Positions 3,437 to 31,850 of a DNA stretch of 52,471 nt are shown piece by piece; position 1 is the stretch's first letter, and each line of letters opens with the position of its first letter. The DNA is from Porticoccaceae bacterium. Lineage in GTDB: Bacteria; Pseudomonadota; Gammaproteobacteria; Pseudomonadales; Porticoccaceae. The stretch spans positions 1-52,471 of the forward strand of contig JAQXBF010000006.1 in the NCBI GenBank assembly GCA_029252555.1, given 5' to 3'. The translations under genes and the position numbers were made by a program. Below the pieces are notes generated by a model. The model saw only the letters and a program-made list of their open reading frames with translations, did no database searches and had not been told where the DNA came from.

Positions 3437-5050
3437 ATGGAAAAATATGATGCGATCATTATTGGGGCTGGCCATAACGGATTGACCAATGCCGCCTTTC
3501 TCGCCAAGGCGGGGCTTGATGTGGTGGTGTTGGAAAAAAATAACTATGTAGGTGGAGCCACCGCGAGCTTGGAGCTCTACGAGGGTTGGAAGTACTCCAA
3601 TTGCTCCTATGTGTGCAGTTTGTTTCGCCCAGAGATTTATCAGGCCCTAGATCTGGGCCGTCATGGTTTGGAAGTAGTGCCCCTTCAGGGCAGTGTTTCT
3701 TTAATGCAGAATGGCGATCATTTTGGTAGCTATCATCAGTCCGAGGTTCGCCGTCGGGAAATTATGCGCCATTCTAAGCGCGACGCTGATGCAGCGATTC
3801 GCTTTGACGCGGACCTGATGAAGTGGTGCCGACTGATTCGCGGGTTTCTGCTGCGCACCCCGCCAGACCCAGCTTCATTTAGAATGCGCGATGCCATGGA
3901 ATTCGCCCATCTTCTTAAGCGGTTTTACAGCCTTACAGAAAGCCAGATTTACGAATTTATTCGCTTCTTCACCATGTCGATTGCCGAGTATCTAGAGCAG
4001 TATTTTGAGAGCGATATTATTTTGGCCCACTTCTCTGGGGGCAGCATTATCGGTACCGGCCTGGGAGTATATTCTCCGGGCACCGCTTACGTGCTGCTGC
4101 ACCATGCTATGGGAGATGTGGATGGCAATGTGGGTTCCTGGGGTTTTGCCCGCGGTGGCATGGGGTCGGTCTCCCAAGCGATCGCCTCGTCGTTCCAGTC
4201 TTTTGGTGGCAAAATTCGGACCAATGCCGAGGTGCAGCAAATTGCAGTTAAAGGTCGCAAGGCCACTGGCGTTGTATTAGCCTCCGGCGAAGAGGTCTCG
4301 GCTAAAGTGGTAGTTTCTAACCTCGATGCTAAGCGCACATTTCTCAATGTGATGGATGCCAATGATGTGCCGGATGATTTGCTTCATCGGGCTAAAAATT
4401 TCAAAATTCGCGGCTCCTCAGGCAAGGTCAATATAGCCCTTGATGGCATGCCTGAATTTCCTGCGATTCCCAGTGGCTCACCTCTGACATTGGGGCATAT
4501 GCATTTTACCGATAGCCTTGAGCGGCTGGAGCGAGCCTTTGACGATTGGAAGGACGACCGCTGGTCTGCAGACCCCTACGTGGATATGGTGATTCCCACT
4601 CAGTACGACCCGACCATGTCACCGCCGGGCAAACATATGATGTCGGTGTTTGTGCAGTACTGCCCAGCAGAGGTTGAAGGGGGCTGGACTGATGCAAAAA
4701 GAGATGCCTTTGGCGCTACCGTGATTGACCAGATCGCCGACTACAGCCCCAATTTTAAAGATTTGATACTCCATGCCGAGATTCGCACACCCCGAGAGTT
4801 AGAAGCCGAGGTTGGTTTAACCGAGGGCAATATTTTTCAGGGGGAATTAACTCTGGATCAGCTGATGTTTAATCGGCCATTCCCAGGCTATGCCCAGTAT
4901 CGCGGGCCGGTCAAGAATATGTATATGTGCAGCTCCTCCAATCATCCCGGGGGCGGTGTGATGGGTGCGCCTGGTGCCAATTCGGCAAGGGAAATACTGC
5001 TGGACTTAGGCAAGACAGACACGACTCCGGAGGATTTTGGTGATGACTAA
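3437..5050 (+). CDS. FAD-dependent oxidoreductase, PYROXD2-like type I (module 1)
   Basis: 537 residues of the phytoene-desaturase-like/PYROXD2 fold. An N-terminal dinucleotide motif IIIGAGHNGLTNAAFLAKAG (residues 7-26) binds FAD, and a C-terminal signature with NIFQGELTLDQL and HPGGGVMGAPGANSAREIL closes the FAD site. No signal peptide, so cytoplasmic. Automated pipelines tend to call these phytoene desaturases, but there are no crtB/crtE genes here and the partners are GcvT-like proteins, so amine oxidation is the better inference. Type I proteins in this window (also 10795 and 27483) share SNCSYVCS-like and GSSGKVNIALDG blocks and an acidic tail. Its last eight bases overlap the start of the type II gene, which suggests translational coupling and a 1:1 complex. 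ATG 3437 gives the standard MEKYDAIIIGAGHNG start. Confidence 0.88.
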   Translation: MEKYDAIIIGAGHNGLTNAAFLAKAGLDVVVLEKNNYVGGATASLELYEGWKYSNCSYVCSLFRPEIYQALDLGRHGLEVVPLQGSVSLMQNGDHFGSYHQSEVRRREIMRHSKRDADAAIRFDADLMKWCRLIRGFLLRTPPDPASFRMRDAMEFAHLLKRFYSLTESQIYEFIRFFTMSIAEYLEQYFESDIILAHFSGGSIIGTGLGVYSPGTAYVLLHHAMGDVDGNVGSWGFARGGMGSVSQAIASSFQSFGGKIRTNAEVQQIAVKGRKATGVVLASGEEVSAKVVVSNLDAKRTFLNVMDANDVPDDLLHRAKNFKIRGSSGKVNIALDGMPEFPAIPSGSPLTLGHMHFTDSLERLERAFDDWKDDRWSADPYVDMVIPTQYDPTMSPPGKHMMSVFVQYCPAEVEGGWTDAKRDAFGATVIDQIADYSPNFKDLILHAEIRTPRELEAEVGLTEGNIFQGELTLDQLMFNRPFPGYAQYRGPVKNMYMCSSSNHPGGGVMGAPGANSAREILLDLGKTDTTPEDFGDD

Positions 5051-6605
5051 ATCTTTCAAGGTAATCATTGTCGGGGGTGGCCACAATGGGCTGGTTTGTG
5101 CCACCTATTTGGCTGCGGCTGGGCATCAGGTGCAGGTGCTGGAAGCCAGAGACAGCTTGGGTGGCGGTGCGGCGACTAGCGAATTTGCCAAGGGCTACAG
5201 AGTTTCCGGCCTTGCCCATATTCTCCATTCCTTAAGCCCTAAGGTGCGCAAGGATTTAAAGCTTGATACCGCTGGTCTTGAGCCCGGTACAGCGGTGGAG
5301 ACTATCGCCTTGGATACGGCAGGGCAGCATATTCGCATAGGCAGCACAGAGGTTTCCGGTGACGGCTTATCTGCTGAGGATATTAATGCCTACCGCCAAT
5401 TTAAGGCAGACTTTACTCATTACGCCGGTGCCCTTCAGCCATTAATCATGAATAAGCCACCGCGGCTAAAGGGCATGGATAGCAAGGATAAAACCACCCT
5501 GGCTAAATTGGGCTGGCAGCTGCGTTTTGGGCTGGGCAAAAAATCGATGCGGGAATTTTTGCGGGTCGGCGGTATTAATATTTATGATGTGCTTGACGAG
5601 GTGATCGATAGCCCGCAACTAAAAGGGGCAATTGCCGTGGATGCTGTACTGGGCCAGCATATGGGCCCTCGCACACCGAATTCCGTACTCACCTATCTCC
5701 ATCGGCTCTGGGGTGAAACCCACAGTCAGGCAAGCTTGCCTGCTGGAGGTATGGGTCAGGTTGCCAGTGCCCTTGAACGGGCGGCTACTGATGCTGGCGT
5801 GAGTCTGCGCACCAGCGCCGCTGTTGCGCGCATAACCGTAAGCGACGGGCTAGCTAAGGGCGTTGAGTTGCGCTCTGGTGAGTGCCTTGAGGCGGATATT
5901 GTGGTCTCTAATGCCGATGCCAAAACCACCTTTTTAGACTTGGTAGACAGTGCAGAACTGGATGCCATGTTTGTGCATCGGGTCAATTCCATACGCTCTT
6001 TGGGCAATGTCGCCAAATTACATTTTGCTCTTAATGGGCTGCCAAAGATCAATGGCCTCTTGCAGGAAGGGTTGGGGCACAGGCTGCTGATTGCGCCCAA
6101 TATGCGCTATGTAGAGCATGCTTTTAATCATGCCAAATACGGAGAGTTCTCTGAGAACCCGGTGCTGGAGATCACTATACCCAGTATTGCAGACCCTTCT
6201 CTGGCTCCAGCTGGCCATCATGTAATGTCTGTATCCGCGACCTTTGCGCCCTATGGGTTAAAGCAGGGCTGGGATAAACAGCGAGAGGCTTTTACCCAGC
6301 GGGTTATCCATTGCATCGAGCAATATGCACCGGGGTTTGTCGAGCAAATTGTGGCTCAGGAGCTATTAACACCTGTGGATATTGAGGCTCAATACCATGT
6401 TACGGGAGGCCATTGGCACCATGGGGAGATGGCCATTGATCAGTTGTTTATGATGCGCCCGATTCATGGTGCGGCCCAATACGATACGCCAATAAATGGC
6501 CTGTTTCTGTGCGGCGCCGCAGCGCATCCCGGCGGTGGCCTGACTGGTATTCCCGGGCATAACGCGGCCCAGCGAATACTGGCCATGGCAAAGGAAGGCT
6601 TCTAA
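5043..6605 (+). CDS. FAD-dependent oxidoreductase, PYROXD2-like type II (module 1)
   Basis: 520 residues, same fold as the upstream gene but a different subtype: N-terminal IIVGGGHNGLVCATYLAAAG and a C-terminal GGHWHHGEMAIDQLFMMRP followed by HPGGGLTGIPGHNAA. The HWHH stretch near the expected flavin site is found in all three type II copies and no type I copy. The frame also contains TTG 5037 and GTG 5040; ATG 5043 is chosen because GGAGG lies nine bases upstream and it gives the overlap ATGACTAA with the type I stop. The stop overlaps the next ATG by one base (TAATG at 6603-6607). It probably forms a heteromer with the type I protein; which subunit binds substrate is unknown. Confidence 0.87.
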   Translation: MTKSFKVIIVGGGHNGLVCATYLAAAGHQVQVLEARDSLGGGAATSEFAKGYRVSGLAHILHSLSPKVRKDLKLDTAGLEPGTAVETIALDTAGQHIRIGSTEVSGDGLSAEDINAYRQFKADFTHYAGALQPLIMNKPPRLKGMDSKDKTTLAKLGWQLRFGLGKKSMREFLRVGGINIYDVLDEVIDSPQLKGAIAVDAVLGQHMGPRTPNSVLTYLHRLWGETHSQASLPAGGMGQVASALERAATDAGVSLRTSAAVARITVSDGLAKGVELRSGECLEADIVVSNADAKTTFLDLVDSAELDAMFVHRVNSIRSLGNVAKLHFALNGLPKINGLLQEGLGHRLLIAPNMRYVEHAFNHAKYGEFSENPVLEITIPSIADPSLAPAGHHVMSVSATFAPYGLKQGWDKQREAFTQRVIHCIEQYAPGFVEQIVAQELLTPVDIEAQYHVTGGHWHHGEMAIDQLFMMRPIHGAAQYDTPINGLFLCGAAAHPGGGLTGIPGHNAAQRILAMAKEGF

Positions 6606-7825
6606 TGTCGAAACAAGCGATAGATTTAACGCCGCAGCCAAACTTTAGGCAGGTACTGCAGCCCACGCCATTTCATCAGCGTATGGTTGAGCATTGCCCT
6701 ATACAAAACTGGATGTCATGGAATGGTTATCAGACCCCGAGGGTTTGCGACCAATTGGCCTCGGAGTACTTTGCCATTCGCAGCACCTGCAGTGTTATGG
6801 ATCTGACACCGATGGAGAAATATCGCATTATAGGCCCAGATGCAGTGAAGTTTCTCAATCGGCTGGTTACCCGAGATATTAGTGGCCTCAAGCCTGGGCG
6901 AGTGACCTATGTCATCTGGTGCAACGACGAGGGCAAAGTGCTTGACGATGGCACTTTATTCCATCTTGAGCAGGGTGACTATCGCCTCTGTGCCCAGCAT
7001 CACCAACTTGATTGGCTGCTGCTGTCGAGTCTGGGAATGGATGTGAGCATTGAGGAAGAAACTCACAATATCGCTGCGCTGTCGGTGCAGGGCCCAACCT
7101 CTTTTTCGGTGCTCAGTGCCGCTGGTTTGCAAGGTCTGGATACATTGAAACCCTTTGGTATCTGCCAATCTGTTCTACATGGTTTTGATGTCACCATTTC
7201 CCGCACCGGCTTTACCGGTGATCTGGGTTATGAGTTGTGGGTTGATCCCAGCAATGGGTTGGCTCTCTGGGACGCCATTTTTATGCTCAAAGATAATGGG
7301 CTTTTTGATATTCGAACCATAGGCTTGTCAGCTCTTGAAATGGTGCGTATCGAAGCCGGATTTATTATGCCCGGTGATGACTTTAATACGGCCGAGTCAA
7401 CGATTCGCGCAGACCATGACCGCTCTCCCTACGAGTTGGGTCTGGGCTGGCTGGTGGACTTTGACAAACCCTATTTTACGGGCAAGCGAGCACTGATCCA
7501 TGAATATAGTCAGCCGATTGCACGGCGGCTGGTCAAACTGCAAGTCGAGGGCAATAAGCCGCCGGCCGACTCTTTTTTATACGATGGCAAAGGGGGTCGC
7601 CGAATAGGCACGATTAAGTCCCACAGCTGGTCTCCAATCCTTAAAACCAATGTCTGTATGGCTGATATCGAATATCGAAATGGTCTTCCCCCGGGTGAGA
7701 TATGGGCGGAAATTTACTATCAGAAGGAACTGGAATGGCGCGCCACCTGGGCCAAATGCTCGGTGTCGGAGAAGCCTTTTTGGGTACATCCAAGGCGACT
7801 GGCTACGCCACCACAGGCTTTTTAG
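6605..7825 (+). CDS. GcvT-like folate-dependent protein (module 1)
   Basis: 406 residues of the GcvT/aminomethyltransferase family. The acidic pair D114-D115 (GKVLDDGTLF), TRDIS and SRTGFTGDLGYELW correspond to the folate and catalytic regions of the T-protein. It ends in RRLATPPQAF, closely matched by the module 2 copy. By analogy with heteromeric sarcosine oxidase and dimethylglycine oxidase, where a GcvT-like domain captures the imine or formaldehyde made at the flavin as 5,10-methylene-THF, it is inferred to take one-carbon units from the two FAD proteins upstream. The start codon overlaps the stop of the type II gene. Confidence is high for family and moderate for role. Confidence 0.87.
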   Translation: MSKQAIDLTPQPNFRQVLQPTPFHQRMVEHCPIQNWMSWNGYQTPRVCDQLASEYFAIRSTCSVMDLTPMEKYRIIGPDAVKFLNRLVTRDISGLKPGRVTYVIWCNDEGKVLDDGTLFHLEQGDYRLCAQHHQLDWLLLSSLGMDVSIEEETHNIAALSVQGPTSFSVLSAAGLQGLDTLKPFGICQSVLHGFDVTISRTGFTGDLGYELWVDPSNGLALWDAIFMLKDNGLFDIRTIGLSALEMVRIEAGFIMPGDDFNTAESTIRADHDRSPYELGLGWLVDFDKPYFTGKRALIHEYSQPIARRLVKLQVEGNKPPADSFLYDGKGGRRIGTIKSHSWSPILKTNVCMADIEYRNGLPPGEIWAEIYYQKELEWRATWAKCSVSEKPFWVHPRRLATPPQAF

Positions 7826-7836
7826 GGGGGCTTAAT

Positions 7837-8244
7837 ATGCTAACTGGCAGGTGTGAATGCGCCAAAGTGAAGTATCAGGTTGAGGGTCAAATACACGACT
7901 TTAGTCATTGTCATTGCAGCCAGTGCCGTCGTTTGCACGGGGCAGCTTTTGCAACCTTTGCCGGTGTCTCCCGCGCCGATTTCCGCTATCGCAGTGGCGA
8001 GTCAGATCTGGTCAGCTATGCCTCATCAGATAGCCATAGTCGGGTATTCTGTAGTCACTGCGGCTCCAATATTCTGGTGGCATTGACCACTGAACCCGAT
8101 GACCTCTATCTGGCTATGGGCACCATGGATGGCAATCCGGATTGCCCACCGGATTACCATATCTTTGTTGGCTCAAAGGCGCCCTGGTACAGGTTGAATG
8201 ATAAGGCCCCCGGCTACGAGACTTTTCCCGAGGATGAGGCCTAA
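7837..8244 (+). CDS. GFA/CENP-V family zinc protein
   Basis: 135 residues with the full zinc-site pattern of the glutathione-dependent formaldehyde-activating (Gfa) fold: C6 and C8, C25-x-C27-x2-C30 (HCHCSQC), and C72-x2-C75 (FCSHCGS). Family members bind glutathione adducts or act as C-S lyases; the formaldehyde-activating role was described in Paracoccus and has been disputed. The frame is open upstream to 7702, but ATG 7837 is chosen because AGGGGGG lies six bases before it and the domain begins there. It follows the GcvT-like gene by 11 bases and overlaps the next start (TAATG), so it is co-translated with a demethylation module, where scavenging formaldehyde adducts would make sense. Confidence 0.85.
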   Translation: MLTGRCECAKVKYQVEGQIHDFSHCHCSQCRRLHGAAFATFAGVSRADFRYRSGESDLVSYASSDSHSRVFCSHCGSNILVALTTEPDDLYLAMGTMDGNPDCPPDYHIFVGSKAPWYRLNDKAPGYETFPEDEA

Positions 8245-9101
8245 TGTTTAACGCCATGATGACTCGGCTAACAAACCCGTCTCCGGAGTTTCGCCAGGGA
8301 CTCAAACTAGTGGTCTACTCATTATTACTGATCAATTTTGCCCTCTACATCAGAAATGACTGGGTCATCTCTGGCCACACATTGCACGCGGGAAGCACTT
8401 TGCTGGAATGGACCAGAGCCTTTGCCGTGACCATCGATGAAAGTGCCTGGATAATACTGCTGGTTCTTTTTGAGATGGAGACCTATCTGCTAGCAGACAA
8501 TGCCCTATCCAGAAAACAATCAATGTTTATGCAGTTGGTGCGCATTATCTGTTACATCAGCTTGGCTCATACCCTTTACGCCTACACCGTTTATCTGCAG
8601 GAGTTAAATAGTGCCGTGCTTATTGATGGGGTAAGCAATCTCTGCCAGCTGGTGAGCAAGGATTTGTCTTACGCCTACAACTTGGTGTACACCGACTTGA
8701 CGGCAGATAACTGCGCCGCTCTGTCCACCGCCAATCAGTTTTACTATATAGACCCGCCCAAATTTTTTATTGTGCAAGACGGGGCAGGGTTAGGTATTGA
8801 GCTAGAGCTTGCCTGGGTTGACCTCATAGAAGCCATAGTATGGCTACTGATTCTATTTACCATCGAAGTTGCAGTCTGGCTGCAGGATGGCAATATCAGC
8901 GAGGGCGTGGCGTTTAGGGTGCTGGCCAGGATCAAGCTGTTTCTCTATTCCCTGTTGTGGATGGCGATTATCTATTGGCTGTACCGCGGCCACTACATGT
9001 TTGCCTGGGATGAGTTAGTCTGGATTGCAGGGTTTGTGGCCATTGAGATGAATATGAGGGCTTGGCGCAAAGAATTGATTGAAGCTAATCAGGCAGCCTG
9101 A
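8244..9101 (+). CDS. Conserved-looking six-helix membrane protein of unknown function
   Basis: 285 residues, not recognised. Hydrophobic segments near residues 20-38, 56-72, 87-108, 188-208, 222-242 and 248-264 suggest about six transmembrane helices, with a loop of about 80 residues between helices 3 and 4 that contains two cysteines (in SNLCQ and DNCAA). Several acidic residues lie in or beside the helices (TIDESAW, FEMETY, WVDLIEA, FTIEVAVW, AIEMNM), resembling voltage-sensor or channel-like proteins more than a carrier. The start overlaps the GFA stop, so it belongs to the module 1 transcript. It could export or sense an amine or product; this is speculation. Confidence 0.65.
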   Translation: MFNAMMTRLTNPSPEFRQGLKLVVYSLLLINFALYIRNDWVISGHTLHAGSTLLEWTRAFAVTIDESAWIILLVLFEMETYLLADNALSRKQSMFMQLVRIICYISLAHTLYAYTVYLQELNSAVLIDGVSNLCQLVSKDLSYAYNLVYTDLTADNCAALSTANQFYYIDPPKFFIVQDGAGLGIELELAWVDLIEAIVWLLILFTIEVAVWLQDGNISEGVAFRVLARIKLFLYSLLWMAIIYWLYRGHYMFAWDELVWIAGFVAIEMNMRAWRKELIEANQAA

Positions 9102-9229: not shown

Positions 9230-10789
9230 GTGAGAGTTAATTTGCCACAATACGACAATATTATTATTGGTGCTGGCCACAATGGTTTGGTCTGCGCAGC
9301 CTATCTGGCCAAGAAGGGCCAGTCGGTGCTAGTGCTGGAGGCCTCAGATACTTTGGGAGGCTTGGCGGCAACCCGAGAGTTTTATCCCGGCTACAAAATT
9401 GCTGTGGCCCATAGTCTCAGTCATTTCTCCCCCCAAATTGTCAGCGACCTAAATCTGACTGATCATGGTTTTAAATCAGGCGCACCCATGCCCACCATAG
9501 GGCTGGACCTACAGGGGAAGCATGTTGTGGTCACTAGGGATACTGTTCGAGGGGTTACCGATAAAGATGCGAGTAGCTACACAGACTACCTGCAGTTACT
9601 CGAGCGTTTTGCCAACATGCTGTCGCCGTTCTGGTTAAAAACCATGCCTCGTATCGGCAGCAAAAAGCTTAAGGATCTAACAACCTTTGCCCAGCTCGGG
9701 CTAAAACTGCGCCTGTTGGGCAAAGAGGATATGGGCGAGTTTATGCGGGTTGCGACTCTGCCTGCCCGGGACCTGATGGATGAGAATTTTGACAATGATC
9801 TTTTAAAGGCTGTGTTGAGCTGGGACGGCTTAATTGGGTCGAAAATGGCTCCCCGTTCCCCCAATGCAACAGTGTTGGCCATGCTCTACCGAATGAGTGG
9901 TGAGCACAATGGCGCCTCCAGTATTCCTCAGGGCGGTATCGAAAGTCTGATTAATGCGCTGCATCAAGTGATTGCCACTGCTGGTGGCCAGGTGCAGCGT
10001 CATTCACCGGTTGCCAAAATCAATGTGCAGGGTGATAGCAATGGTCTGCAGGCAACAGGAGTCGAGTTAGCCGATGGCACAGTATTAACGGCTGGCAGGG
10101 TCATTTCATCTGCAGACCCCAAGCGCACTTTCTTGCAGTTGGTCGGAGTTGAGAATCTGGAGATTGAATTTAGCAATCGCATCAATCGCTTGCGCAGCGA
10201 TGGCTATGTGGCTAAATTACATCTCGCCCTCGATGGGCTGCCTCATTTTAACGGCATTGATATCCCCGATGGGCGCATGATTATTGCACCCAAGATGGAT
10301 AGCATTGAGTTTGCTTTTGATAACGCCAAATACGGCGAAAGCCCTGAGCAACCGGTTATGGAAATGATGCTGCCCAGCCTCAGGGATGCCTCGTTGGCTC
10401 CCGAGGGCAAACATCTGTTGTCTGCTCATATTATGTATGTGCCCCACAGCTTAAAGGGCGGCTGGACTGCTCAGGCTAAGGCCAGCCTGCAAGAACTGGT
10501 TATTGATACTATCGCTCAATATGCGCCGGAACTTCGCCAGCAGATTATCCATGCCGAACTATTAACCCCGGAAGATATTGAACGCAGCCACCATGTAACT
10601 GGGGGCCATTGGCATCACACCGAGTTGTCTATGGACCAGATGTTAATGATGCGCCCCACCTACGAAGCGGCCCAGTACAGCACGCCCATACCGGGGCTGT
10701 TTTTATGTGGTGCCGGCAGTCACCCCGGTGGCGGCCTGATGGGTGGCCCGGGCCACAATGCTGCCCGCCATATTCTGGGGGCGAAATAA
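9230..10789 (+). CDS. FAD-dependent oxidoreductase, PYROXD2-like type II (module 2)
   Basis: 519 residues of the type II subtype: IIIGAGHNGLVCAAYLAKKG at the N-terminus and GGHWHHTELSMDQMLMMRP plus HPGGGLMGGPGHNAA at the C-terminus. The GTG at 9230 is used; TTG 9242 is an alternative because the recognisable domain begins only at residue 8, and neither has a strong ribosome site. A 128-base gap separates it from the membrane protein gene, so a promoter may lie there. In this module the type II gene comes first and type I second, the reverse of modules 1 and 3, yet the same two partners and a GcvT-like gene are present. Confidence 0.85.
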   Translation: MRVNLPQYDNIIIGAGHNGLVCAAYLAKKGQSVLVLEASDTLGGLAATREFYPGYKIAVAHSLSHFSPQIVSDLNLTDHGFKSGAPMPTIGLDLQGKHVVVTRDTVRGVTDKDASSYTDYLQLLERFANMLSPFWLKTMPRIGSKKLKDLTTFAQLGLKLRLLGKEDMGEFMRVATLPARDLMDENFDNDLLKAVLSWDGLIGSKMAPRSPNATVLAMLYRMSGEHNGASSIPQGGIESLINALHQVIATAGGQVQRHSPVAKINVQGDSNGLQATGVELADGTVLTAGRVISSADPKRTFLQLVGVENLEIEFSNRINRLRSDGYVAKLHLALDGLPHFNGIDIPDGRMIIAPKMDSIEFAFDNAKYGESPEQPVMEMMLPSLRDASLAPEGKHLLSAHIMYVPHSLKGGWTAQAKASLQELVIDTIAQYAPELRQQIIHAELLTPEDIERSHHVTGGHWHHTELSMDQMLMMRPTYEAAQYSTPIPGLFLCGAGSHPGGGLMGGPGHNAARHILGAK

Positions 10790-10794
10790 GGCCT

Positions 10795-12414: not shown

Positions 12415-12444
12415 CCTCGGCTGAGACTGGATATTAAATAACCT

Positions 12445-14301: not shown

Positions 14302-14326
14302 AAAAAGCCTAGCGGCAAACAGCTAG
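14302..14326 (-). terminator. probable folD terminator
   Basis: Read on the minus strand, a stem CTAGC/GCTAG with an eight-base loop is followed by CTTTTT. It overlaps the folD stop codon, and with the MOSC gene ending just beyond it may serve both convergent genes. The stem is short, so confidence is moderate. Confidence 0.45.
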
Positions 14327-23029: not shown

Positions 23030-24210
23030 TCTGATAGCACCACAGAACAGCTGGAGTCCCAAGAGAGATAAACCTGATCATCCCATTCTAAAACCAGCTC
23101 TTTAGTGCGCTGAAAATTCTGTGCACTAATTTGAATAATGCGGCCAGAATGGCTGCGCACTCGATAGATAGAGCGGTTGCCATAATAGGCTAAGTCCTCA
23201 ACCACACCGCTGGTAATGGTTAGATTTTTGCCCCGGGGTTTTTTCTGGCTAATACTGAGTTTCTCTGGCCTGACTCCAATGGAGATCAGATCGCCTTCTT
23301 TAAGTTTATGGGTGCAATCGGCCTCGACCAAGGTGCCAGTTTTGTCCAGTGCCGCCTCTATGGCATAGGTGTTTTTGTCTATCACAGTGCTGCCAGTTAC
23401 CTTGGCATCAAACAGATTAATGGTGCCAAAAAAGTCAGCCACAAAGCGATTAATAGGAAATTCATAGACTTGTAATGGAGTCCCTATCTGCACAAAGCGC
23501 CCCGCATCCATAACTGCCACCCTGGAAGACAATGTCATGGCTTCCTCCTGATCATGGGTCACCACAATAAAGGTGGTGCCGAGCTTGTATTGCAGATTGA
23601 TCAGCTCAAATTGGGTCTGCTCGCGCAGCTTTTTATCAAGGGCCGCCAGAGGTTCATCCAGCAATAAAACCTTAGGCCGTTTAATAAGAGCCCTGGCCAA
23701 TGCGACCCGTTGACACTGGCCACCAGAGAGTTGCTTAGGCTTGCGCGCCGCCAGCTCTTCGAGCTGCACTAGCGCCAGCATTTCTTTCACTCGCGCTGCA
23801 ATTTCAGCCTTGGGCAAGCGATCTTTCTTCAGGCCATAGGCGACATTCTGAGCCACAGTCATATGGGGGAAAACAGCATAGGACTGAAACATCATATTGA
23901 CCGGGCGATCGTAGGCGGGCAGATCAGTAATATCCACACCATCAATAATAACCTGGCCGGCAGAGGGCGTTTCAAACCCAGCGAGCATGCGTAATAAAGT
24001 TGACTTGCCGCAGCCCGAGCCGCCGAGAATAGTAAATAACTCCCCCTGATAGATATCCAAGCTGATGTTGTCTACCGCAGTGAAGTCACCAAACTGTTTG
24101 CCCAATGATTTAATCTGGATAAAAGGAACCGCCTTCGGGTCGAGCCAGGGCGCTTCTGCAAAATCCGTCGCAGGTTTTACTGGCATAATCTTATCGCTTG
24201 CTGCTCTCAT
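23026..24210 (-). CDS. potA: Spermidine/putrescine ABC transporter ATPase, PotA type
   Basis: 394 residues. Walker A GGSGCGKST (63-71), Q-loop in MMFQSYAVFPHM, signature LSGGQCQRVALARAL, Walker B VLLLDEPLAALD and H-loop VVTHDQEEAM are all intact. A C-terminal TOBE-type regulatory domain (about 290-394) includes IGVRPEKL. The N-terminal extension of about 30 residues is slightly long, and ATG 24186 is a possible alternative start. Energises uptake through PotB and PotC. Confidence 0.93.
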   Translation of the reverse strand: MRAASDKIMPVKPATDFAEAPWLDPKAVPFIQIKSLGKQFGDFTAVDNISLDIYQGELFTILGGSGCGKSTLLRMLAGFETPSAGQVIIDGVDITDLPAYDRPVNMMFQSYAVFPHMTVAQNVAYGLKKDRLPKAEIAARVKEMLALVQLEELAARKPKQLSGGQCQRVALARALIKRPKVLLLDEPLAALDKKLREQTQFELINLQYKLGTTFIVVTHDQEEAMTLSSRVAVMDAGRFVQIGTPLQVYEFPINRFVADFFGTINLFDAKVTGSTVIDKNTYAIEAALDKTGTLVEADCTHKLKEGDLISIGVRPEKLSISQKKPRGKNLTITSGVVEDLAYYGNRSIYRVRSHSGRIIQISAQNFQRTKELVLEWDDQVYLSWDSSCSVVLSE

Positions 24211-24230: not shown

Positions 24231-25391
24231 TTATAGGCCAGTTTTTATTCTTGTCCAGGTGCGCATGCGTCTGCGCTCTAGCTTGGGGGTTAATACCTCA
24301 GTGGTTTGCATACGCTGCAGGACTTGCTGGTCGGGATAGATCGCGGTATCCATCTCTATTTCAGGTTTCACAAAAATATTGGCATCTTTATTGGCATTGG
24401 CGTAACCAATATAGTTGGTGGACTTGGCAATCACTTCCGGGCGCAGCATGTAGTCAATAAACAGATAGGCATTGTCAGGATGAGGCGCATCGGCTGGAAT
24501 AAAAATACTATCAAACCAGATGACCGACCCCTCTATAGGAATGGTGTAAGCCAGATTAATATCAATGCCTGCATCTGCTGCGCGGCCCGCCGCAACCCCA
24601 TAGTCTCCGGACCAGCTCATCGCCATACACACCTCTTTGCTGGGCAGGTCTAGCAGCATTTTGGTGGAGCTAAAGTACTTGATATAGGGGCGAACAGACT
24701 TGACCAACTGTTCTACCTCTGCCAAATGATTGAGATCGACACTATTGGAGGGGTAGCCCAGATACATCAACGCCAGAGGGATTACCGTTAATGGGTCATC
24801 CAACATAGACACCCCACAGTCGGCAAATTTAGAGATTATTGCCGGATCAAAAAACATGCGCGCACTGCCCACAGGGGCGTCGGGCATGCGTTCGGCAATC
24901 GCATCCACATTGTAGGTAAAGCCGGTGGTGCCCCAGAAGAACGGGCTGCCCATAAGCCCACTGCTGTAAGACCGATCCATCGTCTCCAATAAGGCCGGAT
25001 TGAGGTGGTGCCAATGAGGCAGGCGGCTATGGTCTAGGGGTTGAAGAATGCCAATGGGTTTAAATCTGGAGGTATATGAAGCGGCATGGACGACAATATC
25101 ATAGCCACTGCGACCCGTGAGTAATTTGGCATCCACGATTTCGCTAGAATCATAGATGTCGTAATTAACCTCAATCCCGTATTCCTGCTCAAAATCTTTT
25201 AGGGTCTGGGGGTCTATATAGTCTGCCCAGTTATAGATATTCAGGCGCTGCTCAGTTTGTGCGGGGGAGCTAGAGTCGGAGTTGAACTGATTGTCTACTG
25301 GTTGCCCGTTCCACAGAAAAAAACTAACCGCGGCTGCACCGAGTAAAGCGGGCAGTATTAGGCGGGCAGAATAGCGGCGACGGTTGGCCAT
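24231..25391 (-). CDS. potF: Polyamine-binding periplasmic protein, PotF/PotD type
   Basis: 386 residues with a basic N-terminus and one hydrophobic segment (about 9-27), either a signal peptide or an uncleaved anchor; there is no lipobox Cys and no obvious Ala-x-Ala cleavage site. The mature part begins RLNIYNWADYIDPQTL, the hallmark of PotF/PotD/SpuD proteins, and continues with WGTTGFTYNVDAI and a WSGDYGVA pocket segment. It captures putrescine, spermidine or a related cation for PotABC. The tail is rich in Arg and Lys. It is seven bases downstream of the acyl-CoA dehydrogenase gene in one operon. Confidence 0.9.
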   Translation of the reverse strand: MANRRRYSARLILPALLGAAAVSFFLWNGQPVDNQFNSDSSSPAQTEQRLNIYNWADYIDPQTLKDFEQEYGIEVNYDIYDSSEIVDAKLLTGRSGYDIVVHAASYTSRFKPIGILQPLDHSRLPHWHHLNPALLETMDRSYSSGLMGSPFFWGTTGFTYNVDAIAERMPDAPVGSARMFFDPAIISKFADCGVSMLDDPLTVIPLALMYLGYPSNSVDLNHLAEVEQLVKSVRPYIKYFSSTKMLLDLPSKEVCMAMSWSGDYGVAAGRAADAGIDINLAYTIPIEGSVIWFDSIFIPADAPHPDNAYLFIDYMLRPEVIAKSTNYIGYANANKDANIFVKPEIEMDTAIYPDQQVLQRMQTTEVLTPKLERRRMRTWTRIKTGL

Positions 25392-25398: not shown

Positions 25399-26559
25399 TT
25401 ACATTCCTTTTAGCCCGCGTTTGCGCAGGGCGCTGGCAATAACCATACGCTGAATTTCACTGCTGCCTTCCCAGATGCGATCCACCCGCACCTCGCGATA
25501 AAAGCGCTCGACGGCATTGTCCCGGCGATAACCGCGCCCGCCCCATAGCTGCAAACAGCGATCGGCAACCCGATTCGCCATTTCAGTAGCATAGAGTTTT
25601 ACCACGGAGCACTGGGCGTGCTGAGATTTAAGGTCATCACCGCGATCATGGGCAGCAGCGGCCTCGTAGACCATCAGTTTTGCGGCCCAGAGTTCGGTAA
25701 CACTGTCGGCCAGACTAAATTGGGTCGCTTGTTTGTCGATCAGATACTCATCTTGAATCTTGCGCTGCGTACACCATTGAGTCGCTTCTTCGATCATCCG
25801 CGTGGCAGCGCCAAGCATTCGCGCAGCAATGGTCAATCGCTCATGGCGGAACCAGCTGCGGCTGTAATCCATGCCAGCACCCTCGTCGCCGACCCGGTTT
25901 TTCTCTGGCACAAAAACATTGTCAAATTGGTAGGTGGGGTGATGGGAGGGGAAGGTATGGGAGAACGCAGGGTTCTCGATCATGGTGACTCCCGGCGCAT
26001 CTATATCCATAAAAAATAACGCGTCTTCGCCGTTGTCGGTTTTGGCCTGAATAAAAAAGAAATCCGCCAGATTAGCTGTCGTCACAAACCATTTCTCGCC
26101 GCTAATACTGTAGCCGCCATCGCAGGCCGCGGCTTTGGTATCAACCACCTCATGGGAGCCGGACTCGGCTTCGGTTATGGCGTAGCACTCCCGCAGGCTG
26201 CCATCCATCAATGGGTGCAGATAGTTTTTGATCTGGTAATCGCTACTGGCGCAGGCTTCAAACATCCATTGCTGGGCTTCAGGAAAACACCAGCACAGGG
26301 CATTGGTCACGCGACCAAGCTCTTCCCAAGCGGCCAACTGATCAACCATGCTCATACCGAGGCCACCGTGTTCAACTGGGGCATCCATTCTGGACAGGCC
26401 CAGTGCAATAGCATTGGTCTGCATTTTCTCGCTGGCTTGTTTGGGGATTACACCATTATTAAGTTCAGCCTCTACTTCCCATGGGATCAGATCTTCATCA
26501 ACAAACTGTCGAACCCTCCGTTGCCATTCTCTGGTGCTTTGGCTGTGCTGAATATCCAT
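25399..26559 (-). CDS. Acyl-CoA dehydrogenase family flavoprotein
   Basis: 386 residues, standard length. The three ACAD regions are present: helical N-terminus, a central beta part with CYAITEAESGSHEV and GEKWFVTTA, and a C-terminal helical bundle ending in RVDRIWEGSSEIQRMVIASAL, where E364 aligns with the catalytic Glu of medium-chain acyl-CoA dehydrogenase. It desaturates an acyl-CoA at C2-C3 and passes electrons to ETF. Lying between tetR and potF, it presumably acts on the CoA thioester of an amine-derived acid, for example a (methylated) aminobutyryl-CoA; that substrate is inference. AGGAAG precedes ATG 26559. Confidence 0.88.
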   Translation of the reverse strand: MDIQHSQSTREWQRRVRQFVDEDLIPWEVEAELNNGVIPKQASEKMQTNAIALGLSRMDAPVEHGGLGMSMVDQLAAWEELGRVTNALCWCFPEAQQWMFEACASSDYQIKNYLHPLMDGSLRECYAITEAESGSHEVVDTKAAACDGGYSISGEKWFVTTANLADFFFIQAKTDNGEDALFFMDIDAPGVTMIENPAFSHTFPSHHPTYQFDNVFVPEKNRVGDEGAGMDYSRSWFRHERLTIAARMLGAATRMIEEATQWCTQRKIQDEYLIDKQATQFSLADSVTELWAAKLMVYEAAAAHDRGDDLKSQHAQCSVVKLYATEMANRVADRCLQLWGGRGYRRDNAVERFYREVRVDRIWEGSSEIQRMVIASALRKRGLKGM

Positions 26560-26579: not shown

Positions 26580-27212
26580 TTACGCCTGAAAGTGGTCGGG
26601 GAATTGTGTGGCCAGATAATGCATAGCCACCCCATAAGCCTGGTCTGGCTTTAAGCCTTTGGGAGTGACCAGTAAATCCAGCCACAGCCCATCGGCCAAA
26701 GCGGTATAGCAGATGCAGGTAAGCTCTGGATTTACTTTGTTATAGCCACCTTCTTGCTTTAGTTGAGCAAAAAGCTGAGTGAGGTTGGCGGCTATCTCGG
26801 CAATATAGCTCGCGCAAATTGATAGATAGGTGGGGCGAGATTTAGTCTCACCCCAAAAGGCGAACCAGACAGCCAGTTTATTGCGGTCGATAATTTTGCG
26901 ACTGAAATCATAGCGAATATGGGCGCTTATTTTCTCTGCTGTGGTTTGACTTTGGTCATTAAATATTTTACCCAGACCACTGCTGTACTCGTCAGAGATA
27001 TGGCGCAATGTTTCGATAAGCAGCTTCTCTTTACTCTGGAAATGCAGATTAACAATACCCAGGCTGAGGCCAGCCTCAGTGGTAATATCAACCATGGTTA
27101 CACCAGACAGGCCCTTTTTGGCGATGCATTGAATAGTCGCCAAAATCAATTGATCCCGTCTCGCCTGCGCTGAAACTGATCGCTTTGAACCTGTGGGTTG
27201 TGGTGCTGCCAT
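26580..27212 (-). CDS. TetR/BetI-like regulator of the pot operon
   Basis: 210 residues. Helix-turn-helix at about 20-65 (RRDQLILATIQCIAKKGLSG...TEAGLSLGIVNLHFQSKEKLL), close in style to BetI, the choline-responsive repressor. The remaining helices form the ligand pocket. First gene of the minus-strand operon with the acyl-CoA dehydrogenase and potFABC. It most likely binds the 18-bp palindrome at 27352-27369 and controls both this operon and the divergent module 3 operon, including itself. The ligand may be the imported amine or an acyl-CoA product. Confidence 0.88.
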   Translation of the reverse strand: MAAPQPTGSKRSVSAQARRDQLILATIQCIAKKGLSGVTMVDITTEAGLSLGIVNLHFQSKEKLLIETLRHISDEYSSGLGKIFNDQSQTTAEKISAHIRYDFSRKIIDRNKLAVWFAFWGETKSRPTYLSICASYIAEIAANLTQLFAQLKQEGGYNKVNPELTCICYTALADGLWLDLLVTPKGLKPDQAYGVAMHYLATQFPDHFQA

Positions 27213-27348: not shown

Positions 27349-27351
27349 CTT

Positions 27352-27482: not shown

Positions 27483-29102
27483 GTGACCAAAAAATACGAT
27501 GCAATTATTATCGGCGCGGGACACAACGGCCTGACTAATGCAGCCTATCTGGCTAAGGCAGGGCTAAATGTGCTGGTACTGGAGAAAAACGCTTATATAG
27601 GTGGCGCCACGGTCAGCCGTGAGCTTTACCCCAATTGGAAGTACTCCAATTGTTCCTATGTCTGTAGTTTGCTGCGACCGGAAATTATCCGTGATCTAGA
27701 ATTGCCCCGCCACGGCCTGCAGGTAGTGCCCTACGGTGGCGGTGTCACCTTTAAAGAAAATGGCGACTACTATGGCAACCATGCAGACCATGAGCGCCTG
27801 CTGCGAGAAGTCGCTCGACATTCAAAGCGCGATGCCAGTGCCTACGAACGCTACGAAGCGGATGTGATGAAGCAGACCCGTCTGATTCGCCCCTTCTTGA
27901 TGCGCACGCCACCAGACCCAACGTCCTTGAAACCCCGAGACCTAAAAGAGCTTGCGGTACTGGCTAAATCTTTTGGCAGCATGGGCGAAGAGGGCCTGGC
28001 TGACACCATGCGTTTCTGGACCATGAGTATTGGCGACTTTCTCGACGAATACTTTGAGTCCGATGTTATTAAGGCTCATTTGGCCGGCAGCGGCATTATT
28101 GGTACGGCACTGGGTGTTTACTCCCCAGGGACCGCCTATGTCCTGCTGCATCATTATATGGGTGATGTAGACGGCTCGGTGGGTGCCTGGGGCTTTGCTC
28201 GCGGTGGAATGGGCTCGGTGGCAGCGGCACTTTCCAAATCTTTCCAATCCTTTGGCGGCACCATTCAATGTGGCGCTGAAGTAGATCAAATTATTGTTAA
28301 AAATGGCAAAGCCAAAGGTGTGGCGCTGGCCAATGGAGATGAGCTTCACGCTGATATCGTAGTGTCAAACCTAGACCCTAAGCGCACCTTCCTGAAGATA
28401 ATGGATGAGGGTGATCTGCCAGCAGATGTGGTCACCAAGGCTAAGAACTTTAAAATCCGTGGCTCTTCTGGAAAGCTCAATATTGCTCTAGACGGGTTGC
28501 CCACTTTTACTGGCCTACCCAAAGAGAGCCCATTGTGTCTGGGTGAGAAGCACTTTAGTGATTCTCTGCCAAAAATGGAGCGGGCTTACGATGACTGGAA
28601 AGCGGAAACCTGGTCAAAAGACCCCTATGTGGACATGTTGATCCCCACTCAGATTGATCCGACCATGGCGCCTCCGGGCAAACATATGATGTCGGTATTT
28701 GTGCAGTATGCACCACCAAAGGTTAATGGCGGCGACTGGACCGCTGAGGACAAGGCGGGCTTTGAAAAGACCGTTCTAGACCAAATCAGTAACTTCAGCC
28801 CCGATTTTAAAGATTTAATTTTGCACTGTGAAACCAGAACGCCAAAAGATATAGAAGATGAAGTGGGCCTTACTGAAGGCAATATCTTTATGGGTGAACT
28901 GACCTTTGACCAGTTGCTGTTTAACCGTCCATTCCCCGGCTATGCCCAGTACCGAGGCCCAGTTAAGGGTATGTATATGTGTAGTTCTGGCACCCACCCT
29001 GGCGGTGGTGTAATGGCTGCACCGGGCGCTAATGCAGCGCGGGAAATACTGATGGACTTAAAGCTAAATAACACTGTGCCTGGAGGGTATGACGATGATT
29101 AA
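27483..29102 (+). CDS. FAD-dependent oxidoreductase, PYROXD2-like type I (module 3)
   Basis: 539 residues, type I: KKYDAIIIGAGHNGLTNAAY, SNCSYVCSL, GSSGKLNIALDG, NIFMGELTFDQL and HPGGGVMAAPGANAAREIL, then an acidic tail (YDDD). GTG 27483 is the start, supported by GGAGC seven bases upstream. Of the other two type I proteins it looks nearest to the module 1 copy. The stop overlaps the type II ATG by eight bases (ATGATTAA), the same junction as in module 1. First gene of the long operon divergent from the pot operon, so amine import and this enzyme are probably controlled together. Confidence 0.88.
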   Translation: MTKKYDAIIIGAGHNGLTNAAYLAKAGLNVLVLEKNAYIGGATVSRELYPNWKYSNCSYVCSLLRPEIIRDLELPRHGLQVVPYGGGVTFKENGDYYGNHADHERLLREVARHSKRDASAYERYEADVMKQTRLIRPFLMRTPPDPTSLKPRDLKELAVLAKSFGSMGEEGLADTMRFWTMSIGDFLDEYFESDVIKAHLAGSGIIGTALGVYSPGTAYVLLHHYMGDVDGSVGAWGFARGGMGSVAAALSKSFQSFGGTIQCGAEVDQIIVKNGKAKGVALANGDELHADIVVSNLDPKRTFLKIMDEGDLPADVVTKAKNFKIRGSSGKLNIALDGLPTFTGLPKESPLCLGEKHFSDSLPKMERAYDDWKAETWSKDPYVDMLIPTQIDPTMAPPGKHMMSVFVQYAPPKVNGGDWTAEDKAGFEKTVLDQISNFSPDFKDLILHCETRTPKDIEDEVGLTEGNIFMGELTFDQLLFNRPFPGYAQYRGPVKGMYMCSSGTHPGGGVMAAPGANAAREILMDLKLNNTVPGGYDDD

Positions 29103-30672
29103 TCTCGATAAGAACTATGATGTCATTATCGTCGGTGGTGGCCACAACGGCCTAGTCTGTGCCAGTTATCTTGCCAAAGATGGCCGCTCGGTGTTGGTGC
29201 TTGAAGCCAATAATTCAATCGGCGGCGCCTCAGCCACCAGCGAATTTGTCGACCAGTTTTCGGTGTCCTCCTGTGCCCACTGGCTAATCCAATTAAATCC
29301 GGATATCGCCTCTGATATGGGCCTTAACAGTCAGGGTTTGGAAATGGCGGCCCGCGATTTAAAGACCATTGCCCTGGCCGAAGATGCCGACCACCTAACC
29401 ATTGATGGAGATAATCTTGAGGGTGGGGGAATCTCCGATGAAGACCGCAAAGCCTATATCGCCTTTAACAAGCAGATGCTGAAATTCTGCAAGTTGTTGG
29501 CCGGTGCCTTTAATCGTCGCGCACCGAAGCTAGTTGAGGGTAACCTGACCGACCGTCTAACATTGGCCAAGCTGGGTCTAGGCATGAAAATGCTCGGCAA
29601 AGACGATATGAGCGATTTGATGCGTCTGGCATTGATCAATATCTACGATGTAATGGAAGAAAACTTCGACAACGAGCTATTAAAGGGAGCGATCAGTCTG
29701 GACTCCTTGCTAGGGTCTCATATGGGCCCGCGCTCACCCAACACGGTTTACGGTTATCTCTATCGCCGTATGGGCGATGTCTTTGGTTACAAAGGCCCTG
29801 CAGTGGTGAAAGGGGGTATGGGAGCCGTGGGTGAAGCTATGGCTAATGCGGCCCGGGCCAAAGGTGTAGATATCCAGCTGGGCGCAGCGGTGAGTAAAAT
29901 CAATATTGATGTAGACCGCGCCACGGGAGTGACCTTGGCTGATGGCACTGTGGTAAATGGCGCTTTAGTGGTTTCCAATGCCGATCCAAAAACCACCTTT
30001 AATAAGTTGGTTGGCTTGGCCAATATCGAGACTGGAGTGGCGCGCAGGGTTAAAACCATGCGCATGAAAGGCGATGCGGCCAAGCTCCATATTGCTCTGG
30101 ATAGCCTGCCTAACTTTACTGGCTTGACCGAGCAGCAGATGGGTCAGCGGCTGGTGATTGCACCGACCATGAATTATATCGAGACCGCTTTTAACGCCTC
30201 TAAGTACGGCGAATATTCCAAGGCCCCGGCAATGGATATCAGCATCCCTTCTGTTCACGATGCCAGCCTGGCGCCAGATGGCAAGCATGTGATGTCGGTA
30301 ATAGTGCAGTACGCGCCCTATGAATTGGCCGGTGGTTGGAATGACGAGCATAAAGAAGCCTTTAAAAATCTGGTTATTGATCGGATTGCTGATTTTGCAC
30401 CGGATCTAAAAGATAAAATTGTTGCAGCTCAGCTACTTACACCGGTGGATATCGAAGAGCGCTTCCATATTCACGGGGGCCATTGGCACCATGGTGAGAT
30501 TAGTCTCGACCAGATTCTGATGATGCGTCCTTTCCCTGGTGCCTCTCAATATGGCACCGCAGTGGATGGCCTGTATCTCTGTGGGGCGGGTAATCACCCT
30601 GGCGGTGGCGTGATGGGCCTGGCCGGTCACAACGCGGCAAAAGAAATTATTAATCGAGGTAAATCAGCATGA
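29095..30672 (+). CDS. FAD-dependent oxidoreductase, PYROXD2-like type II (module 3)
   Basis: 525 residues, type II: YDVIIVGGGHNGLVCASYLA, then GGHWHHGEISLDQILMMRP and HPGGGVMGLAGHNAA. ATG 29095 is chosen over ATG 29089 because TGGAGGG lies seven bases before 29095 but only one base before 29089. The stop overlaps the next start as ATGA. Together the two overlaps make type I, type II and GcvT-like genes one translationally coupled unit, the strongest sign in the window that the three products form a complex. Confidence 0.88.
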   Translation: MINLDKNYDVIIVGGGHNGLVCASYLAKDGRSVLVLEANNSIGGASATSEFVDQFSVSSCAHWLIQLNPDIASDMGLNSQGLEMAARDLKTIALAEDADHLTIDGDNLEGGGISDEDRKAYIAFNKQMLKFCKLLAGAFNRRAPKLVEGNLTDRLTLAKLGLGMKMLGKDDMSDLMRLALINIYDVMEENFDNELLKGAISLDSLLGSHMGPRSPNTVYGYLYRRMGDVFGYKGPAVVKGGMGAVGEAMANAARAKGVDIQLGAAVSKINIDVDRATGVTLADGTVVNGALVVSNADPKTTFNKLVGLANIETGVARRVKTMRMKGDAAKLHIALDSLPNFTGLTEQQMGQRLVIAPTMNYIETAFNASKYGEYSKAPAMDISIPSVHDASLAPDGKHVMSVIVQYAPYELAGGWNDEHKEAFKNLVIDRIADFAPDLKDKIVAAQLLTPVDIEERFHIHGGHWHHGEISLDQILMMRPFPGASQYGTAVDGLYLCGAGNHPGGGVMGLAGHNAAKEIINRGKSA

Positions 30673-31850
30673 TTCCCCATGATGAAACAATGATTCTGGA
30701 AACGCCGTTTTACTCACGGTGTCTGGCGGCCTGTGAGATCAATCTCTGGGAAGACTGGAAGGGCTATCGAAGTGCCCAAGCCTATACGAGCGTTGAGCAA
30801 GAGTATTTCGCCGTGCGCAGTAATACAGGTGTATTTGATATATCACCAATGATCAAATACCGCTTTATCGGCCCTGATGCAGGAGCCTACCTGAATCGCC
30901 TGTTGACCAGAGATATCAGCAAAATTGCCATTGACCGAGTTGCCTACACGGTCTGGTGTGATGACGAGGGTCAGGTGATGGATGATGGAACGATCTTCCA
31001 TCTTGGAGAAAATGACTACCGCCTCTGCGCCTATGCGCGATGCCTCGATTGGTTGATGTGGTCTGCAGAAGGGTTTGACGTAACTATTTTTGACGAAACC
31101 GCTGACATTGCCGCTCTTGCCGTTCAGGGGCCAACATCCTGTGCTGTATTTAAAAATATGGGTTTTACCGGCATTGAAAACCTCAAGCCTTTTGGTATCA
31201 CCCGCTACCCCTTTGAGGGCTCAGAAGTGATGATCAGCCGCACCGGTTTTACCGGTGATCTGGGCTATGAAATTTGGATTGAGCCGGCACTGGCCGAAGC
31301 CTTCTGGGATCAGCTTTTCGCCGCAGGCAAGCTCCGTGGTATTCGCGCCATTGGGAGTGCTGCACTGGATATGTTGCGCACCGAGACCGGCTTTTTGCAG
31401 GCTGGTGTGGACTTTGTGCCCGCGGAAGAAGCCATTCGCAACGGGCGTTCGCGCTCACCGTTTGAATTGGGTCTGGGCTGGTTAGTGTCTTTCGATAAGC
31501 CTGTATTTAATGGCCGTAAAGCACTTCTCAAGGAGAAAAAAGAGGGTTCCCGATACGCCTTTGTCTACCTTGATGTTGAGGGTAACAAGCCAGCGGAGCA
31601 CGCATTTATTTATGCGGGCAATAAAGAAGTTGGCACAGTCACCACCGCGGCTTGGTGCCCAACGGCCAAGAGTAATATTGCCTTTGCTCAGGTGGATGCC
31701 AAGTACGGCAAAGTAGGCCAAGAGTTGGTGGCAGAAATCTATTATGAGCGCGAACTTAAATGGACCCGCTTAATGGCCAAGTGCACAGTGGTTGAGGGTG
31801 CCGTATTTAATCCGCCACGGAAAAGGCAGACCCCAGCAGCGGATTTCTAA
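30669..31850 (+). CDS. GcvT-like folate-dependent protein (module 3)
   Basis: 393 residues of the GcvT family. TRDIS, the acidic pair D105-D106 (GQVMDDGTIF), SRTGFTGDLGYEIW and a C-terminal TPAADF correspond to the copies of modules 1 and 2. Starts inside the type II stop (ATGA) and itself overlaps the next gene (TAATG). Inferred to take the one-carbon unit from the FAD pair to make methylene-THF. The N-terminus is about 12 residues shorter than in the module 1 and 2 copies. Confidence 0.87.
   Translation: MIPHDETMILETPFYSRCLAACEINLWEDWKGYRSAQAYTSVEQEYFAVRSNTGVFDISPMIKYRFIGPDAGAYLNRLLTRDISKIAIDRVAYTVWCDDEGQVMDDGTIFHLGENDYRLCAYARCLDWLMWSAEGFDVTIFDETADIAALAVQGPTSCAVFKNMGFTGIENLKPFGITRYPFEGSEVMISRTGFTGDLGYEIWIEPALAEAFWDQLFAAGKLRGIRAIGSAALDMLRTETGFLQAGVDFVPAEEAIRNGRSRSPFELGLGWLVSFDKPVFNGRKALLKEKKEGSRYAFVYLDVEGNKPAEHAFIYAGNKEVGTVTTAAWCPTAKSNIAFAQVDAKYGKVGQELVAEIYYERELKWTRLMAKCTVVEGAVFNPPRKRQTPAADF

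Follow-up and report, generated by a model that had tools for sequence, protein, structure and literature searches.

A repeated triad of two flavoproteins and a GcvT-like protein as a probable tetrahydrofolate-linked N-demethylase in a Porticoccaceae bacterium

The stretch of DNA analysed here, hereafter the window, is the entire contig C7 (52,471 bases) from a marine gammaproteobacterium of Porticoccaceae/SAR92 type, whose genome has 2.30 Mb in 40 contigs and is 97.5% complete; Porticoccaceae and SAR92-clade bacteria are among the nearest named relatives of its genes. Open reading frames (ORFs) and Pfam matches reveal three copies of a gene triad composed of a type I flavoprotein (A), a type II flavoprotein (B) and a GcvT-like protein (T), all on the forward strand. 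Module 1 (3437-7825) has the order A-B-T, with A1, a CrtI/amine-oxidase-like flavin adenine dinucleotide (FAD) protein, at 3437-5050, its paralogue B1 at 5037-6605 (the start is possibly 5043) and T1, a putative tetrahydrofolate (THF) binder, at 6605-7825. Module 2 (9230-13674) is arranged B-A-T, with B2 at 9230-10789, A2 at 10795-12414 (the listed ORF start, 10609, is too early) and T2 at 12445-13674. The A-B-T order is found again in module 3 (27483-31850), which contains A3 (27483-29102), B3 (29089-30672) and T3 (30669-31850). These assignments rest on Pfam and NCBIfam for A1, T1 and T2, with identity to A2 and A3 added for A1; on Pfam and identity comparison for B2; on Pfam, AlphaFold models and a fold search for A3 and B3, with identity added for A3; and on Pfam and alignments for T3. 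We take A1 to be PYROXD2-like.

Within the window, pairwise identity is 61-67% among the A proteins, 45-47% among B and 47-48% among T, and 31-37% between A and B, a pattern which indicates two flavoprotein subtypes with three copies each. The three groupings are those proposed by an earlier, sequence-only reading of this DNA, which did not remark on the inverted order in module 2, and its observation that no A, B or T gene stands alone, apart from the GcvT-like gene at 2102, agrees with the ORFs and Pfam matches of the window. Apart from the six A and B genes of the window, a whole-genome search with A gave only weak matches, to two CrtI-type genes (contigs C25 and C28). GCV_T has 11 matches genome-wide, 10 of them over the cut-off and four inside the window. 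The gene at 2102-3346 (+), T0, encodes a divergent GcvT-like protein (PF01571, 168 bits) that keeps the DD and GYE motifs; module 1 begins 90 bp downstream of it, in the same orientation. T0 may be a fourth, accessory gene of this module, since its best-matching ORF elsewhere, 51% identical, sits before a type-1 triad in locus L062. The cluster was also considered as a foreign island and this was dropped, its GC content (0.51) differing little from the 0.49-0.52 of six stretches elsewhere in the genome.

Related loci were retrieved with an alignment of 11 A proteins as query. The best 80 of at least 594 stretches, holding at least 582 relatives, were retained, and the 79 named loci (L numbers) are the closest relatives only. 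With profiles built from the three A, three B and three T proteins of the window, adjacent A, B and T genes were found in 72 of the 79 loci, the T gene itself being shortened by a contig end in a few of them, e.g. L108. Five of the other seven are A-B pairs running into a contig edge, and two (L107 and L116) have A alone. Counting every locus, 106 genes pass the A threshold, of which 95 are accompanied by B and T, 8 are cut by an edge and 3 are real exceptions. These 106 A genes, as well as the 92 full triads considered below, include duplicate fetches (L037/L063, L038/L133, L047/L090 and L052/L087 among them); a similarity filter leaves 84, and 59 rows entered each of the A and B structure alignments and 48 the T alignment.

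Of the 92 triads of full length, 83 are ordered ABT, 8 BAT and one TAB; the median intergenic gap is -4 bp, and 178 of the 184 gaps are of 20 bp or less. Correlations between the pairwise distance matrices of the three proteins lie at 0.86-0.91, and in 74 of the 89 triads from outside the window all three proteins fall in the same window class, the remaining 15 having A and T of class 3 and a B nearest to B1. At the genome level, T (E <= 1e-70) is present in 17 of 56 related genomes, our own included, and the same 17 carry a close A (best E 1.8e-178 or better, as read from the best-E column of the genome search; next genome 3.9e-108). This co-occurrence gives a Fisher value of 1e-14 with relatedness ignored, 14 of the 17 carriers belonging to one genus. 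In a phylum-wide sample of 299 genomes, a close A (at least 63% identity) and T again occur in the same genomes, seven in number, five of them from one genus. Four alphaproteobacterial plasmids (Shinella, Fuscovulum, Parasedimentitalea and Rhizobium) also carry the triad, together with annotated ring-hydroxylating dioxygenase, aminotransferase and ABC transporter genes with generic names; there, the triad genes are labelled only 'NAD(P)/FAD-dependent oxidoreductase' and 'aminomethyltransferase family protein'. Collectively, these data show that the triad is a real unit, and the conserved adjacency of both flavoprotein subtypes with a GcvT-like gene, which the sequence-only reading had put forward as one of its checks, is borne out by loci and genomes. 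No published description of the triad was found in the literature searched, subscription journals and preprints lying mostly or wholly outside it.

Both flavoproteins have well-conserved FAD signatures. The GxGHNG motif is kept in 92/92 A and 89/92 B proteins, and a second motif, HPGGG, in 92/92 and 83/92, respectively. Mean column identity reaches 76% in A and 55% in B. Matches to DAO are mostly restricted to the N-terminal FAD motif, the long Pfam match being Amino_oxidase. AlphaFold models of A3 and B3 have a mean pLDDT (predicted local distance difference test) of 85.0 and 91.6, and the best fold match of both in the Protein Data Bank (PDB) is 4rep, a gamma-carotene desaturase. Next come further CrtI-type proteins, Rab-GDI, nicotine oxidoreductase, putrescine oxidase and monoamine oxidases. 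A and B are thus predicted to adopt CrtI/amine-oxidase folds. The conserved stretch 461-490, ahead of HPGGG, is modelled less confidently (block means 59-66 in A3 and 56-78 in B3), perhaps because a partner is missing.

The T proteins contain the GCV_T and GCV_T_C domains, and T0-T3 score 168-191 bits against the GCV_T superfamily cut-off of 25.6. Residues D106, E201, S190-R191-T192-G193 and R237 of T3 are invariant across the 48 aligned T proteins, which therefore keep the catalytic Asp and the Glu/Arg positions of the THF site. When T3 is aligned with the T. maritima T-protein, the second Asp of 'DDG' corresponds to D96 and the Glu of 'GYE' to E195, positions being counted from the alignment; these Asp, Glu and Arg residues are presumed to act in the THF site. 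T does not retain R227 of T. maritima, the Arg within the ARD motif. Over the 92 T proteins, SRTG[FYW][TS]G[DE]LGYE occurs in 91 and DDG[TI] in 90, and ARDxLR in none. The best NCBIfam match of T1-T3 is the C-terminal part of trimethylamine N-oxide (TMAO) demethylase (221-259 bits), DmdA and LigM matching less well. The retained THF-site residues uphold the earlier assignment of T as a folate protein, and each triad pairs FAD-motif proteins of amine-oxidase type with a THF-competent GcvT-like protein.

The genes around module 3 give further clues to its function. Neighbours were counted within 10 kb of A in 42 loci (all of the 79 that span 19 kb or more) and compared with a background of 20 regions of 20 kb from five genomes, one without the triad, at hand-picked coordinates; in other genomes they were labelled against the window genes, or clustered and read by eye. 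A Rieske gene is found in 28/42 triad loci versus 1/20 background regions, a class III aminotransferase in 24 versus 1 and a TetR regulator in 26 versus 0. Also absent from the background are the PotB/C-like permease and the PotD-like protein (19 triad loci each), the glutamine-synthetase-like protein (17), acyl-CoA dehydrogenase and CoA ligase (16 each) and DAO (15). The enrichment of the PotA-like ATPase, in 20/42 triad loci versus 5/20 background regions, is not significant.

The Rieske oxygenase of the window (35481-36737, +) is closest to 3vca/4qup (222 bits), which we take to be the Sinorhizobium meliloti stachydrine demethylase Stc2; aromatic oxygenases score 130 at best and carnitine monooxygenase 118. 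Among NCBIfam models, GbcA fits this Rieske protein best, with 272 bits, below the cut-off of 670. Among the 56 related genomes, a Rieske gene at E <= 1e-70 is present in 16 of the 17 with the triad and in 0 of the 39 others, the exception (G030) being 74% complete, and this co-occurrence is the strongest functional clue. Upstream of module 3, on the reverse strand, lie polyamine-type ABC permeases and an ATPase (PotC, PotB and PotA-like by Pfam; 21279-24210), followed by a PotF/SpuD-like substrate-binding protein (24231-25391), which by phmmer matches 3ttl, 'Polyamine transport protein', with 322 bits and the putrescine-binding protein 1a99 with 295. W-x-D-Y, W-x-G-D and W-F-D of PotF, which we assume to belong to its ligand-binding residues, are kept, and 'DDPEE' of PotF becomes 'DDPLT'. 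Thus, the Rieske and PotF/SpuD-like neighbours place module 3 in an N-methyl-amine context, in line with the methylated-amine role suggested earlier, and its surroundings point to N-methyl amines as substrates.

In dimethylglycine oxidase (DMGO), dimethylglycine dehydrogenase (DMGDH) and the heterotetrameric sarcosine oxidase TSOX, a flavin site oxidises an N-methyl group and a GcvT-like THF site captures the carbon; their flavin domain is of the DAO type and either forms a fusion or belongs to alpha/beta subunits. T3 has its match in the equivalent part of their solved chains, whereas the triad has two separate CrtI/amine-oxidase-type flavoproteins and a separate T, and T1-T3 reach only 119-141 bits with the soxA model (cut-off 1164). 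Three GCV_T matches elsewhere in the genome lie in long open frames of 838-1010 residues and are presumably DAO-type/GCV_T fusions. The closest PDB match of T3 is the C-terminal part of TMAO demethylase (Tdm; 9q5a, 9q59), but Tdm is one chain of 793 residues without A/B-type flavoproteins, and the whole-chain model NF053776 is matched by its C-terminal part only, far below its cut-off of 1100 bits. For Stc2 and GbcA, the likeness concerns the neighbouring Rieske gene and not the triad. By analogy, we favour DMGO/TSOX/Tdm-like chemistry carried out on another flavoprotein scaffold.

We therefore consider it probable, from sequence and analogy, that each triad makes up one THF-linked oxidative N-demethylase, and that module 3 acts after the Rieske oxygenase on N-methylated, polyamine-like amines. 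A and/or B would turn a tertiary or secondary amine into an iminium by oxidation at an N-methyl group, and T would take the methylene, giving 5,10-methylene-THF and releasing the demethylated amine; this chemistry is modelled on that of dimethylglycine and sarcosine oxidases. In module 3, the PotF/SpuD-like transporter would import the substrate, the Stc2/GbcA-like monooxygenase would take the first methyl off a quaternary ammonium, the triad would strip off the one or two methyls left, and the resulting amine would enter gamma-glutamylation or transamination. The idea of a THF-linked demethylase, already put forward in the sequence-only reading, gains from the co-occurrence, the THF-site residues, the surroundings of module 3 and the improbability of a carotenoid role; complex formation, catalysis, the order of steps and the substrate class (N-methylated polyamines or related aminated betaines) are what we infer, as is the oxidation of amines by A and B, proposed from their sequences. 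Two further ideas of that reading, a physical heterotrimer and a different substrate for each of the three copies, are conjectural. Diatom long-chain polyamines are one candidate substrate and methyl-lysines another. The degree of methylation of diatom long-chain polyamines depends on the species (PMC12206195).

It is a serious possibility, if short of even, that only one of A and B is catalytic and the other a structural or electron-transfer subunit. The far stronger conservation of A speaks for this variant, and sarcosine oxidase is a precedent for unequal subunits; the FAD motif, however, is kept by nearly all A and B proteins. One can also picture a channelling A/B/T heterotrimer that handles the tertiary amine at one flavin site and the secondary amine at another, performing successive demethylations after the Rieske step, so that SAR92, Halieaceae, Woeseiaceae, roseobacters and rhizobia would mineralise N-methylated polyamines such as the diatom long-chain ones, human PYROXD2 being a single-chain relative that oxidises N-methyl-lysines. 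We hold this picture, taken as a whole, to be decidedly unlikely.

On the other hand, the trio could be a pathway instead of one enzyme. A and B would then oxidise the carbon backbone of amines to imines or aldehydes, like polyamine or pipecolate oxidases, and T would separately capture the formaldehyde of the Rieske reaction or move a methyl group non-oxidatively, as DmdA and LigM do. Amine oxidases are indeed among the closest folds of A and B, GFA and DAO genes lie nearby, single A-like genes occur without T, and Rieske N-demethylation releases formaldehyde. Nevertheless, the near-perfect co-occurrence of A, B and T, together with their fixed adjacency and translational overlap, points to a closer connection, type-1 loci keep T though they have no Rieske neighbour, and T1-T3 are closer to the THF part of TMAO demethylase than to DmdA or LigM. 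This pathway arrangement is thus unlikely, though it keeps a real chance.

Very improbable, in our view, is that A and B belong to the carotenoid desaturases or ketolases and have the GcvT-like gene beside them by chance, the case that the sequence-only reading had named as fatal to its proposal. CrtO is the best NCBIfam model for the four of the six A/B proteins covered by the scan, and the top fold match is a carotene desaturase. Yet these four proteins score 226-279 bits for CrtO against a cut-off of 1000 and 108-150 for CrtI against 238, outside both families. Moreover, the genome has its own carotenoid/retinal-type cluster on contig C28 (L198, 3898-10195), where CrtI (571 bits), Blh and IPP isomerase are over their cut-offs and CrtB-, lycopene-cyclase- and prenyl-synthase-like genes are below theirs. 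No carotenoid-synthesis domain beyond those of the A/B type was found by Pfam in 40 of the 46 window ORFs, triad neighbours elsewhere lying outside this crt screen. Carotenoid desaturation by A/B is consequently disfavoured on both the sub-threshold scores and the separate crt-type cluster. Equally improbable is a role of the triad in glycine or serine metabolism, with T, given its GCV_T and GCV_T_C domains, as an ordinary paralogue of the glycine-cleavage T-protein; we reject this because T1-T3 miss both GcvT cut-offs of NCBIfam (139.5-184.5 versus 235.85 and 198-226 versus 300 bits) and lack the ARD motif, while a separate ARD-bearing gene on contig C38, with the best GCV_T score, is presumed to be the true GcvT.

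Several observations weigh against a THF-linked demethylase. The fold search does not part desaturases from amine oxidases, its top match being a desaturase. Untruncated A genes without B and T exist in L107, in L116 and as a second copy in L101 (18135-19712); L116 also has, at 514-1410, a methylene-THF-reductase-like gene below the model cut-off. FolD (14323-15225, -) is the sole folD found in the genome and probably serves housekeeping, so that it is no proof of a dedicated one-carbon route, and we dropped it as such. No Rieske gene lies near any of the 16 type-1-like A loci (L057-L072), within the DNA examined, which ties the Rieske link to type-3 triads and to the genome and not to every triad. 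Even this simple picture is complicated by G032, where the Rieske gene is on a contig other than those of the triads found there.

Finally, single A homologues mostly lack T, indicating that the flavoprotein scaffold does not need it. In the phylum-wide sample, the only match of 27 further genomes at E <= 1e-60 is a more remote A-like gene (36-42% identical), and T was found beside none of 13 such genes with 1.5-kb flanks and none of 7 in stretches of 16-17 kb. A tree of 90 rows, in which several branches are long, groups 26/27 B proteins together and puts 29/34 single genes with A, the fork behind this second placement having weak support. A two-gene version of the triad is found on a Shinella sumterensis plasmid (L141, 8995-11746), where a single A-like gene (480 bits) adjoins a GcvT-like gene. 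CoA ligase, enoyl-CoA hydratase, 3-hydroxyacyl-CoA dehydrogenase and 3-keto-5-aminohexanoate cleavage protein complete this cluster, and the set resembles what we take to be carnitine-type betaine degradation. Elsewhere, single A-like genes neighbour an aminotransferase with PuuC and acetylpolyamine aminohydrolase, a GABA transaminase, or choline dehydrogenase with an SRPBCC protein; two such loci inspected have no clear link and a third only a loose one. In the congeneric loci L034, L035, L036, L050 and L054, a single A-like gene adjoins relatives of the window folD, puuD or amidohydrolase genes; four of these genomes are without the triad, and G019 (L050) has one.

Human PYROXD2 is a single flavoprotein of the CrtI/amine-oxidase-like kind, any orthology to A, B or the single A-like genes being hypothetical. 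No solved structure named PYROXD2 is among the matches listed for A and B. The sequence-only reading mentioned a link of PYROXD2 to methylated amines, and the literature on metabolite quantitative trait loci (QTL) concurs, tying the gene to N6-methyllysine, N6,N6-dimethyllysine, N6,N6,N6-trimethyllysine and N-methylpipecolate, with mention of trimethylamine and dimethylamine. The methyl-lysine link recurs in red cells (PMC9763692), and a 2025 metabolite QTL study associates PYROXD2 with methyl-lysine and symmetric dimethylarginine (PMC11988406). In urine, rare variants give no signal independent of the common ones (PMC7878905). The genetic signals that tie PYROXD2 to methylated lysines are very strong, and its precise function is described as little known (PMC8777681).

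The remaining genes of the cluster complete this picture. Between the binding protein and module 3 lie an acyl-CoA dehydrogenase (25399-26559, -; Pfam) and a TetR/BetI-type regulator (26580-27212, -) divergent from module 3. Downstream, all on the forward strand, an NDP-forming acyl-CoA ligase family gene (31850-33940) overlaps T3 by one base and is followed by a glutamine-synthetase-like gamma-glutamyl ligase of the PuuA/GmaS kind (33983-35362; below the listed NCBIfam cut-offs). Beyond the Rieske gene come a DAO-family flavin oxidase resembling AmaA and aminophosphonate oxidase (36760-38043; below cut-offs), a class III aminotransferase (38792-40177; 642 bits, over the PRK07036 cut-off of 618), an arginase/agmatinase family gene (40221-41135; Pfam), and a second class III aminotransferase with a PuuD-like gamma-glutamyl hydrolase (42470-44695; Pfam and NCBIfam). 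Next to module 1, the listed ORF of a GFA-family protein (7702-8244, +; PF04828, the domain starting at residue 46) overlaps T1, and GFA is matched in 5/79 loci. The ORFs at 8244-9101 and 17652-18371 (+) are without a Pfam match and look rich in hydrophobic stretches by eye; relatives of the former accompany triads in 10/79 loci. A 635-residue FAD amine-oxidase-like protein (18388-20295, +), with relatives in 7/79 triad loci, begins with a twin-arginine-type N-terminus (ITRRDML, then a hydrophobic stretch), so that its export is possible. An aspartyl/asparaginyl beta-hydroxylase-like gene (20690-21253, +) is found in 15/42 triad loci and 0/20 background regions. The contig ends (1-2000 and 48000-52471) have a GC content of 0.40-0.43 and encode TPR-repeat proteins, and a tRNA-Leu lies at 51243-51329.

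Since the four plasmid carriers are named isolates, the question of what the triad does is testable now. If the proposed function is correct, it would represent another protein scaffold for THF-linked oxidative demethylation and account for a gene set that carries only generic labels in the four plasmid records. It would, furthermore, provide a testable bacterial model for PYROXD2-type flavoproteins and point to an unrecognised methylated-amine sink in marine and root-associated bacteria.

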